A stretch of DNA of 36,573 nucleotides, from the NCBI GenBank assembly GCA_903851135.1, contig CAINNK010000018.1, positions 1 to 36,573 of the forward strand. Reading direction: 5' to 3'. Positions 592 through 33,543 of this stretch are shown here, piece by piece. This stretch comes from an uncultured bacterium. Its GTDB lineage: Bacteria; Patescibacteriota; Minisyncoccia; Moranbacterales; GWC2-37-73. A program made the position numbers and the translations under genes. Numbering within the stretch: the first letter of the stretch is position 1; the number at the start of each line of letters is the position of its first letter. The notes under the pieces were generated by a model. It ran no database searches and was not told where the DNA came from. It saw only the letters and a list, made by a program, of their open reading frames with translations.

Positions 592-710
592 GAAGTTTTT
601 CCTCTAATATCTAGGTTTAGGAGTTGAGAATTTATGCTGAGTTTCGGGGTCTTGAAAAATAGTGCCTGGCAATAAGAGGTAGTTAATAGTAGGTTTATTT
701 TTAACACAAC

Positions 711-744
711 ATATCAAATTCTTGCATATGCGACTATTTGATAT
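711..744. promoter_or_regulatory. 34-bp imperfect palindrome overlapping predicted promoter of PaaX/Cas2-like gene
   Basis: ATATCAAATTCTTGCATATGCGACTATTTGATAT; TTGCAT (722-727) N16 TATAAT (744-749). Confidence 0.7.
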
Positions 745-775
745 ATAATATGAATAGGAATGGAGAAGGTATTTT

Positions 776-1396
776 TTGATATTTTTTATGAAGAAAGACC
801 AAAAAACAATTGGTAAAATGGCAGAAGATTTTTTGTATTCTGATGGCGTTGGAGCAACTGCCACCAAGTTTTTACTTATGGCAATTGCTGTTGGTGGGAT
901 CGCCTTTGTTGGCGCATTAGCACCAGCGTTGTTTTCAATAGCTGAAGGGGCTGGGCTCAGAAAAAAATATTCCAAAAAGCAATTACAAAATACTTTTGGA
1001 CTTTTAAAGCAACGTAAGTTGGTTGAAATTATTCAAGAGAAAAATGGAAAAACTAAAGTTATTTTGACGAATACTGGAGAAAAGCGGGTGAAGGAATTTT
1101 GTTTTGAGGAGCTTAGAATTCAAAAAGCGAGAAAATGGGACAAAAAATGGCGAGTGCTTGTGTATGATATTCCTACAAAACCTAAAGTATACAATAATGC
1201 TCGTGAGGCTTTGCGGGCAAAGATTAAAGAAATTGGGTTTGTGCAACTTCAGAAAAGTGTTTGGGTTTGTCCGTATGAATGCGAGGACGAAATTCTTTTT
1301 CTTTCGGAAAGTTATCAAGTCACTAGGTTTATTGAAATCTTTACAGTTGATAAAATGCTCCATAGCGAAAGATTGAAAAGAAAATTCAAATTATAG
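776..1396 (+). CDS. PaaX/Cas2-like protein (putative membrane segment, winged-helix-like region, Cas2-like ferredoxin-fold domain)
   Basis: WDKKWRVLVYDIPTK...LRAKIKEIGFVQLQKSVWVCPYECEDEI resembles PaaX C-terminal/Cas2-like domains; TTG start at 776 after GGAGAAGG, or ATG at 788. Confidence 0.7.
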   Translation: MIFFMKKDQKTIGKMAEDFLYSDGVGATATKFLLMAIAVGGIAFVGALAPALFSIAEGAGLRKKYSKKQLQNTFGLLKQRKLVEIIQEKNGKTKVILTNTGEKRVKEFCFEELRIQKARKWDKKWRVLVYDIPTKPKVYNNAREALRAKIKEIGFVQLQKSVWVCPYECEDEILFLSESYQVTRFIEIFTVDKMLHSERLKRKFKL

Positions 1397-1425
1397 CTGT
1401 ATGGTTGGTGTTTTTGTTATCAGAG

Positions 1426-1475
1426 AATAAGATATATCAAATAGTCGCATATGCAAGTATTTGATATATCTTATT
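1426..1475. repeat. 50-bp near-perfect palindrome, inverted counterpart of 711-744
   Basis: AATAAGATATATCAAATAGTCGCATATGCAAGTATTTGATATATCTTATT. Confidence 0.8.
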
Positions 1476-1584
1476 AATTTTAGTTTATAAGGGGGAAAAG
1501 GCTTGAGAATTTAGTGGAGAATATGAAAAAATGAGTGTGCTATAATAAGTCATACTAAATTAGCTGAATCACTGCTAGTTGCAA

Positions 1585-1619
1585 GGAGGCTCAACCTCCA
1601 CAATAGAGGTTGAGCCTCC
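1585..1619. repeat. Repeated hairpin element, copy 1
   Basis: GGAGGCTCAACCTC-CACAATA-GAGGTTGAGCCTCC, 14-bp perfect stem; second copy at 16787-16821. Confidence 0.85.
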
Positions 1620-1705
1620 AACGTCTTGTTTCTTGTTACCGCGAATTAAGTTAAGTTGGTATCAGTTAATAAATTGTTATAAAAAACTAAAAAGCTATTT
1701 AAGAT

Positions 1706-10921: not shown

Positions 10922-11177
10922 ATGAAAACAAGACTCTAAAACCTTAAATTCAGGGTTAACTTTTCTTTTAATAGAAAAGTTACAAAAGAAATCCCGCACG
11001 TGCTTGTTGCTGGGGCAAAGACTTCACTCTTTGCTAAAAATTCCCGCTGCACTTTTTCTGCTGAAAAAGCTCGCTTGAAATTTTCTTTACGCTCATCATT
11101 CGTCTTTTGCCTACGCACTGCGCAATGTGCGGACGAAAAATGCAGAAATCCAGATTCAAATCTGTATATAAGCTATG

Positions 11178-16722: not shown

Positions 16723-16786
16723 AAGGATTGTCGCTGTTTTTTTATGTCCTTTGCTAAATGAATTTAACCCAAGCCAGTTAATCGTT

Positions 16787-16821
16787 GGAGGCTCAACCTC
16801 CATTATGGAGGTTGAGCCTCC
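16787..16821. repeat. Repeated hairpin element, copy 2
   Basis: GGAGGCTCAACCTCC-ATTAT-GGAGGTTGAGCCTCC, 15-bp perfect stem. Confidence 0.9.
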
Positions 16822-16985
16822 TTGCATCGGGCAGTGTTTTTATGGATTTAATATAGTGAAATTCTGTAGCTTGTATGAGGTAATTGTAGCATATTCTAAG
16901 ATATTTGTAAAGCATTTTACGACAGAATATTATAGCTTAGATAAAGCATAAAAGTGCTATTAGAAATAAAAATAGTATAGCCACC

Positions 16986-19625: not shown

Positions 19626-19830
19626 CGGACGGGACCACTTCACCCGTTGGCAACAGAACCATTGAAAAATGGAAATGAAGAAGATCCAACCCGAAGCGGA
19701 TCGCAACGAGTCCGAAAGTCTCGAAAAAACTTTCACCAACTGCCGATAGATAGAATGGTTCTCATCTATCGGCTCATCCCTCAGGAATATATTTTTGTAA
19801 AATGTATTCCTGAGGGATGAAAAAAGTTTT
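19626..19830 (+). ncRNA. Structured intercistronic spacer, full-length copy 3
   Basis: ACGGG/CCCGT, CCATT/AATGG, GATCC/GGATC, GCCGATAGAT/ATCTATCGGC, CATCCCTCAGGAATA/TATTCCTGAGGGATG (15-bp perfect). Confidence 0.65.
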
Positions 19831-20563: not shown

Positions 20564-20655
20564 CGCCGATAGATAGAATAGTTCTCATCTATCGGCTCAA
20601 TCCTTATAAATATATTTTTTCAAAATGTATTTCTAAGGGATGAAAAAGTTCATTA
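20564..20655 (+). ncRNA. Structured spacer, short copy 4 (two tandem hairpins)
   Basis: CGCCGATAGATAGAATAGTTCTCATCTATCGGCTCA then CCTTATAAATATATTTTTTCAAAATGTATTTCTAAGGGATGAAAAAGTTCATTACAA. Confidence 0.6.
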
Positions 20656-30334: not shown

Positions 30335-30405
30335 ATTTTTATTATCTAGCGAAGCGAGCGAAATGAAAGTAATCTTTCATTTCCGAACGAGCGACGATAA
30401 CAAAA

Positions 30406-30472
30406 GGTTAATACCTCGAGGCTTGCCTCGTGAGCCCGAAGGGTCCAGGGCTTGCCCTGGGGTATTAATACC
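30406..30472. repeat. Cloverleaf-like multi-hairpin element
   Basis: AATACC[CGAGG-CTTG-CCTCG][CCC-GAA-GGG][CCAGGG-CTTG-CCCTGG]GGTATT. Confidence 0.75.
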
Positions 30473-30475
30473 CTT

Positions 30476-31207
30476 TTATTTTGCGCCAGCCCAAAGGGTT
30501 TCGAAGATGGATTTGAAACTTTCGTGAATGTCTTTGCTATCGATAATGAAAGAGAATTTTTCTTTGTAGGAAATGATGGCAATTTTATTTTTTTCATAGA
30601 TCAACATTTCGATATTGATTTTGAAAAAATTGGGTGGTAGGAACTTTGATTTTCGTAAATGTTCAACATTTTTTCCAGAAAGCTCATGCATCTGCTGGGT
30701 TTCTGGCATTAGTACACGCGAAGATATTTTTTTCTTGAATCTTTCAGGTCTGTAGAATTTTTCAAAAAAGTCATCGCCGAAATCTGAGATATATGTGTCT
30801 GAAAACATCATCAGAATTTCTTGGTTAGGCACTTCAGCGGTTTTCATGAGAACTTCTTTGATGCCTTCGTCACCTTCGAAATAGCGAATTTCAGGCTTGT
30901 TGTCGATGAGATTTGTGAAGGCCAAAAGCTGAGGAATGAGATTGGAGATTTCTTTTTTTCTTTCTTCCATGATTCTTTCCAAATCTCGTGGGTCTTCGGC
31001 AAAATAGTGTGTTTTACCATCTTTTTTGATGGCACTAATCAGGCCCCTTTCTTTTAGGTTTTCAAGTGAAAGGTATACCGTGGTACGTTTGATGCCAGCT
31101 TGGCGAGCAATACGACTGACAGAAGTCTGGCCAAGTTCAAGGGCGGCGAGATAGATCTTCGCTTCGTTTTCGCTCAGACCCGCGTTTTGAAGTTGTTTGT
31201 GGAGCAT
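30476..31207 (-). CDS. TrmB-like transcriptional regulator (module 4)
   Basis: MLHKQLQNAGLSENEAKIYLAALELGQTSVSRIARQAGIKRTTVYLSLENLKERGLI; ORF extension to 31327 reads through the 31235-31326 element. Confidence 0.9.
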   Translation of the reverse strand: MLHKQLQNAGLSENEAKIYLAALELGQTSVSRIARQAGIKRTTVYLSLENLKERGLISAIKKDGKTHYFAEDPRDLERIMEERKKEISNLIPQLLAFTNLIDNKPEIRYFEGDEGIKEVLMKTAEVPNQEILMMFSDTYISDFGDDFFEKFYRPERFKKKISSRVLMPETQQMHELSGKNVEHLRKSKFLPPNFFKINIEMLIYEKNKIAIISYKEKFSFIIDSKDIHESFKSIFETLWAGAK

Positions 31208-33305: not shown

Positions 33306-33345
33306 AGTCAATGTACTCTTTAGTTTTTAGAAGCTAAGTTAACAA

Positions 33346-33458
33346 TTTTTACGAGCTCGTTTACTTTTTAGGACACGCACCTTGGTCAGGAACTATGACC
33401 AAGGGCTCAGGCTTCCTGTCAGGCGCTATGGTCTAAAAAGCAAACAAACTCATAAAAA
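33346..33458. repeat. 113-bp structured repeat, copy 2
   Basis: TTTTTACGAGCTCGTTTACTTTTTAGGACA ... GTCTAAAAAGCAAACAAACTCATAAAAA; CTTGGTCA/TGACCAAG hairpin. Confidence 0.8.
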
Positions 33459-33543
33459 TTCAGAAGTAATATTTGTTTAGAGTTATATATCTTGTATGAC
33501 TTAACAATGTAGCAATATAGCAATTTGAATTTCTTGTTTAAGC

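Follow-up and report, generated by a model that had tools for sequence, protein, structure and literature searches.

The window, a 36,573-nt stretch of a contig from an uncultured Patescibacteriota bacterium, carries near its start a gene for a PaaX/Cas2-like protein that stands between two palindromes of nearly the same sequence, which raises the question of what the two sites do and why one of them lies behind the gene. The original prediction had proposed autorepression from the upstream site and had offered three options for its downstream twin, namely a second operator acting by looping, the terminal repeat of a mobile cassette or a substrate for the Cas2-like domain. The features of the locus are collected in Table 1.

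Table 1. Positions of the features at the palindrome-flanked locus, in window coordinates
Feature	Position	Strand	Basis or remark
Upstream 36-bp palindrome, 34-bp core 711-744	710..745	-	Overlaps the gene's promoter
Promoter-like TTGCAT-N16-TATAAT	722..749	+	Begins inside the upstream palindrome; -10 perfect, -35 weak (3/6)
Gene, 202-aa PaaX/Cas2-like protein	788..1396	+	ORF and domain match
Predicted winged helix-turn-helix core	974..1066	+	AlphaFold2 model of moderate confidence; fold match to PaaX
PaaX_M/Cas2-like ferredoxin domain, residues 115-193	1130..1366	+	Pfam, model and fold match
Downstream 36-bp palindrome, 34-bp core 1434-1467	1433..1468	+	Centre 54 bp past the stop codon
Downstream palindrome, full extent	1426..1475		25-nt arms, 92% complementary, no loop

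The palindromes bracket the gene as had been predicted, the minus strand of 711-744 reading ATATCAAATAGTCGCATATGCAAGAATTTGATAT and the plus strand of 1434-1467 differing from it by a single base. Each is also palindromic on its own centre, as claimed: like its downstream twin, the upstream core has no loop (17-nt arms, 82% complementary), with its centre at 727/728 and the core 8-mer GCATATGC. Taken together, the sites form a 51-nt inverted repeat, 86% complementary and separated by 675 nt. At up to three mismatches, neither a third copy of the 34-bp site in the window (0 expected from shuffles) nor a further copy in the genome (1.28 Mb, 46 contigs) was found; this search, proposed along with the original prediction, thus returned two copies only, so that the site does not occur at many unrelated loci. 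In two sister species (G003 and G001) the palindromes showed 1 mismatch in 144 compared positions (0/36 and 1/36 upstream, 0/36 in each species downstream), whereas the non-coding DNA around them differed by about 9% in G003 and about 17% in G001, plus gaps. By this comparison both sites, the downstream one included, are under constraint.

The assignment of the gene to the PaaX/Cas2-like proteins was supported by domain and fold searches. The protein matched PaaX_M (PF20803) with 71.2 bits against a cut-off of 24, and the same domain was matched by all 24 homologues checked; the N-terminal and C-terminal PaaX domains of Pfam were not found in it. It scored 25.7 bits against the full-length PaaX equivalog TIGR02277 (cut-off 264.55) and 21.7 bits against the NCBIfam Cas2 model TIGR01573 (cut-off 24.5), reaching neither. 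In an AlphaFold2 model of moderate confidence, the winged helix-turn-helix core (helix 63-75, strands 79-83 and 88-93) is accompanied by a beta-alpha-beta-beta-alpha-beta domain, and the top PDB fold match of the model was E. coli PaaX (8a39, E about 1e-5), several Cas2 proteins ranking after it with weaker E-values. Queried alone, the window protein had no close PDB sequence homologue, and a PDB search with the family profile gave weak Cas2 matches. Judged by its domain matches, the protein is a divergent PaaX relative that has PaaX_M as the only PaaX domain in common, and it is probably a PaaX-type DNA-binding protein composed of a winged helix and a Cas2-like dimerisation domain. An alternative start of the gene is the in-frame TTG at 776. 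Directly next to the gene lie a small ORF and the gene of a UvrD/PcrA-type helicase.

Homologues were present in 15 of the 19 genomes of the same family and in 209 of the 384 of the same class, where several genomes of 0.5-0.8 Mb carried seven or eight members each. We surveyed 110 oriented family loci of the class for 36-bp dyads, over 600 bp upstream and 500 bp downstream, and took an agreement of at least 26/36 between an upstream and a downstream dyad as a matched pair; the loci are a non-random sample, picked from high-scoring and multi-copy genomes with a few near-duplicates included. A matched pair of dyads of about 36 bp was found at 81 of the 110 loci, compared with 7 of 1310 cross-locus upstream/downstream pairings, mostly between close relatives; at this threshold, 29 loci lacked a detectable pair. 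Among size-matched genes (150-280 aa) of the window's genome, 3 of 337 had a matched pair, two of the three being the only PaaX_M genes of this genome and the third an RNA-like hairpin repeat without relation to them. Paired palindromes thus accompany homologues of the window gene widely, in line with the original prediction. The inverted orientation, which that prediction had also stressed, is present in the window (34/36 inverted against 30/36 direct), but it is ruled out as a defining trait of the family: the 81 pairs comprised 37 direct, 13 inverted and 31 undecidable ones, so the arrangement in the window is incidental.

The sequence of the sites differs widely across the family (ATATCAAATA..., TTAGTCAAC..., TGTTACAA..., TATACCAAAA... 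and other types), and the two sites of one locus agreed on average at 31 of 36 positions. Proteins less than 60% identical almost never had a site type in common, and protein distance was correlated with site distance (Mantel r 0.46, p 0.001). In G005, whose homologue at the pcrA locus is 71% identical, both sites have changed jointly to CATTGCAAATTGAGTCATATGCATATGGTTGCAATG and are identical at 36/36 positions; a neighbour type of G005 is CATTGCAA...TTGCAATG. Since the sequence varies between members yet matches within a locus, the two sites have evolved jointly with the protein. Across types, a C at -3 and a G at +3 are kept almost without exception, and symmetry is strong at the centre (positions 0-3, about ±4), drops to little beyond it and is strong again in the outer arms (8-17). 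Running through the centre with no loop, this symmetry points to a dimer that recognises double-stranded DNA and not to a hairpin. Both palindromes are putative binding sites of the locus's own protein. Transcription terminators or structured-RNA hairpins are a very unlikely reading of the palindromes; it draws on the A-tracts before and T-tracts after some of the lone palindromes described below, but is opposed by the missing loop, the symmetric centre and the position of upstream sites in promoters. No Rfam match was obtained at the site, and a terminator was rejected at the window sites, where none was called and no T-tract occurs.

The upstream site had been predicted to cover the -35 element of the gene. 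Both elements are present, TTGCAT at 722-727 and TATAAT at 744-749, but the -35 is weak and a consensus promoter scan did not call the pair, because TTGCAT fits the consensus at three of six positions only. Across the family, a promoter-like -35/-10 pair (match of at least 9/12, starting within the palindrome and pointing into the gene) was found at the upstream palindrome of 54% of the loci; the rate was 19% for downstream palindromes and 7% for randomly chosen positions. In several subfamilies the -35, TTGACT, is supplied by an arm of the palindrome, with TAAAAT or TATTAT 17 bases further on. In E. coli, the PaaX operator is a comparable dyad, TGATTC-N27-GAATCA, of 39 bp, and PaaX, which obstructs RNA polymerase, acts as a repressor of its own promoter (PMC9493321). 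The predicted autorepression therefore fits by position and by the excess of promoter overlap, and we infer that a protein bound to the upstream copy would cover the -35 region and repress the gene that encodes it, in the manner of PaaX in E. coli.

These observations could also be met by a plain autoregulated transcription factor, with both palindromes as operators, the downstream one aiding through looping or cooperativity, no mobility, and lone sites elsewhere forming a regulon. In addition to the promoter overlap and the PaaX homology, the conservation of both sites at the syntenic locus of three species and operator-like tandem arrays of about 64-bp units in G003:C40 speak for it. The position of the downstream site does not: the distance between paired sites showed no helical phasing, and in every subfamily the downstream site lies close behind the stop codon; its centre is a median of 41 bp past it. 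The duplication and the lone sites described in the following count against this explanation as well, and we regard it as unlikely. Among the options originally offered for the downstream twin, looping is thus less likely, and the terminal repeat of a mobile cassette fits best, on account of a duplication in G017 and of a site shared by G012, G013 and G017.

In G017, two copies of the unit are 97% identical over 788 bp with unrelated flanks, the identity ending some 20 bp outside the left palindrome and 4 bp outside the right. Against the distant Moranbacteria homologue L008, the similarity is likewise bounded by the palindromes (-2/+0). The G017 pair was the one clear case of fresh duplication seen within a genome; most family members of one genome are 55-80% identical and are not fresh copies. 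The G017:C29 copy (L069) is located at the 3' end of an RT-like gene; the corresponding place is occupied in G013 not by an element but by a lone palindrome of a different type, and in G012 by a full element of that lone palindrome's type. The 3' end of the RT-like gene (L069 in G017:C29, L124 in G012:C4) is a repeated landing place for different family members. At the place of the G017:C2 copy, G013 has a member of a different subfamily, and directly before the downstream gene that both places have in common stands a lone palindrome that shares the core and agrees at 24/36 positions overall. A G003 copy of about 1.36 kb with four palindromes has no counterpart in the corresponding intergenic region of the window's genome; its edges are ragged, as about 50 bp outside the palindromes differs too. 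No target-site duplication was found at the junctions examined (G003:C52 and two lone palindromes). The window copy itself has been stable for long, being syntenic at the pcrA locus in three sister species and having a homologue beside pcrA in G005 and in BMS3Abin15.

Two further ideas were rejected. Several copies with internal stops had hinted at widespread pseudogenisation as a sign of mobility, but an internal stop in the conserved core was present in only 3 of the 110 fetched loci, two of which are the same locus. Phage or plasmid cargo was ruled out, no relatives being found in viral contigs, phages or plasmids.

Palindromes without a gene between them were also found. In the window's genome there are about 17, which belong to several types; 16 lie outside ORFs, and most are in tandem or convergent gaps, a single one of 17 being in a divergent gap. 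G003 has seven of one type between genes; other types have about 1-8 lone copies each, and the window type has no extra copy. For some lone types the cognate gene is not in the window's genome and is present in a sister species, and two of the G003 lone copies sit in DNA missing from the matching place in the window's genome. The scarcity of divergent gaps, the types whose gene the genome lacks and the two sites unconserved between sister species argue against a regulon, as does, at the level of the unit, the palindrome-to-palindrome duplication in G017. Four near-perfect copies of TGTGACAGAAGTCTGCGGTCGCAGACTTCTGTCACA lie in the window's genome, G000 (C8:5106, C8:60813, C23:51698 and C37:52895) with unrelated flanks; their core is as in the PaaX-type sites, and a cognate gene was not found.

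The dispersed copies, together with the cognate palindromes that flank the gene, recall REP/RAYT and make it possible, though rather less than probable, that the protein itself mobilises DNA as a Cas2-fold analogue of RAYT, cutting or joining at the palindromes and spreading the cassette and the lone copies. The elements supplant one another at the same spots, and the Cas2 active-site position carries an Asp that is kept in all 24 homologues, the invariant residues of the domain being D127, R139, R143, Q155 and S157. On the other hand, neither an HUH motif nor a conserved catalytic Tyr occurs among the invariant columns of these homologues, lone copies are few, a target-site duplication was not found, and passive recombination between repeats leaves similar traces. 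In PaaX itself, moreover, no catalytic role of the Cas2-like PaaX_M domain is known.

In G003:C40 and in G000:C14, a Cas2-like gene is surrounded by 36-bp repeats of one orientation that follow each other at steps of 64-66 bp. In the first of these (L238, 1536-2552), the gene of a second subfamily stands amid tandem units of about 64 bp on both sides, each with one 36-bp palindrome, and the whole mimics a CRISPR array. A minimal CRISPR-like array with a Cas2 adaptor is nevertheless extremely improbable: the Cas2 score falls below the NCBIfam cut-off, and for these arrays the idea was ruled out, as the 28-30-bp 'spacers' are themselves repeated and so are parts of the tandem units rather than acquired sequence.

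Other repeats are frequent, the genomes of the genus being rich in MITE-like repeats. Window positions 1552-1624 and 16775-16824 are copies of a dispersed repeat of about 110 bp with the inverted repeat GGAGGCTCAACCTCC...GGAGGTTGAGCCTCC, which has dozens of copies in the genus, most of them in G003, and one copy just downstream of the element; 30337-30481, 11037-11134 and 33323-33499 belong to other dispersed non-coding families with many copies across the genus. Further palindromic repeat families, e.g., TAGGGACTAAGTCCCC...GGGGACTTAGTCCCTA and ACATTCTCACATTCTCAAGAATGTGAGAATGT, occur in many G000 contigs. At 19743-19773 and 20566-20596, the hairpin CCGATAGATAGAATxGTTCTCATCTATCGG precedes two successive genes and is followed each time by a second hairpin with differing arms (CCCTCAGGAATA/TATTCCTGAGGG and TCCTTATAAATA/TATTTCTAAGGGA); it is perhaps a repeated cis-acting RNA element.

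We favour, as the reasonably probable explanation, an autorepressor gene within a labile cassette. The palindrome-gene-palindrome arrangement is probably a self-regulating, mobile cassette that leaves REP-like palindromes behind: the downstream copy would be the far boundary of a compact unit, which reduced genomes would gain, duplicate and lose in one piece, single palindromes staying at former sites. The unit probably moves as such, and its mobility may be passive, through repeat recombination or horizontal transfer, or catalysed by the protein or another enzyme. A bolder and tentative extension is that the Candidate Phyla Radiation (CPR) might carry a large class of minimal mobile elements whose protein, of PaaX/Cas2 fold, is its own repressor and also mobilises DNA at its paired palindromes. 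Such a class would be REP/RAYT-like with a Cas2 fold instead of the HUH transposase, site and protein co-evolving quickly.

What appears to be new is that the CPR has a large family of PaaX-type proteins, unremarked until now, in which each protein is apparently locked to a matched palindrome pair of its own; full-text literature searches that combined PaaX with Cas2, palindromes or the CPR returned no description of such a system. About half of the 384 sampled CPR genomes carry such genes, some with about eight or more per half megabase. If each protein goes by rule with its own pair, the family offers ready-made protein-DNA pairs from which recognition could be decoded; the rule would also account for the abundant 'PaaX-like' annotation in CPR and would tie Cas2-type folds to palindrome-bounded mobile DNA outside CRISPR.

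Among known systems, Cas2 and CRISPR adaptation share the Cas2-like ferredoxin domain, but here it is fused to a winged helix and the repeats are without acquired spacers; with scores below the cut-off and repeated spacers, the family is, as far as its sequences tell, not a Cas2 or CRISPR module. The IS200/IS605 elements likewise have a single small gene between subterminal palindromes, but they belong to another protein family (HUH is absent here), and the window family has no recognisable insertion tetranucleotide and a palindrome centre that belongs to the site instead of being a loop. Compared with classical insertion sequences, the ends fall at the palindromes in the G017 pair and against L008, the empty sites being ragged and a target duplication not being found. 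In REP/REPIN-RAYT systems (TnpA-REP, 'REPtrons'), cognate extragenic palindromes flank the gene, lone copies lie elsewhere and protein and palindrome co-evolve (PMC3116915); the window family is alike in having a gene, flanking cognate palindromes and lone palindromes (PMC3116915, PMC8266576). It differs in showing no signature of HUH/Y1 chemistry, in palindromes that are symmetric to the centre without a loop or tetranucleotide tag, in several genes per genome and in the number of dispersed palindromes, which is tens to hundreds for REP and 0 extra for the window type or 1-8 for others; lacking the HUH/Tyr signature and having few lone copies, it is by these marks not a RAYT. PaaX resembles it in the winged helix followed by a Cas2-like domain, which gave the best fold match, and in a dyad of about 36-39 bp with outer half-sites, autorepression being shown for E. 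coli PaaX and inferred here. Unlike PaaX, the window protein is shorter, lacks the N- and C-terminal Pfam domains and does not reach TIGR02277, and its family has a second full site just past the stop codon, many divergent copies per genome and dispersed lone sites.
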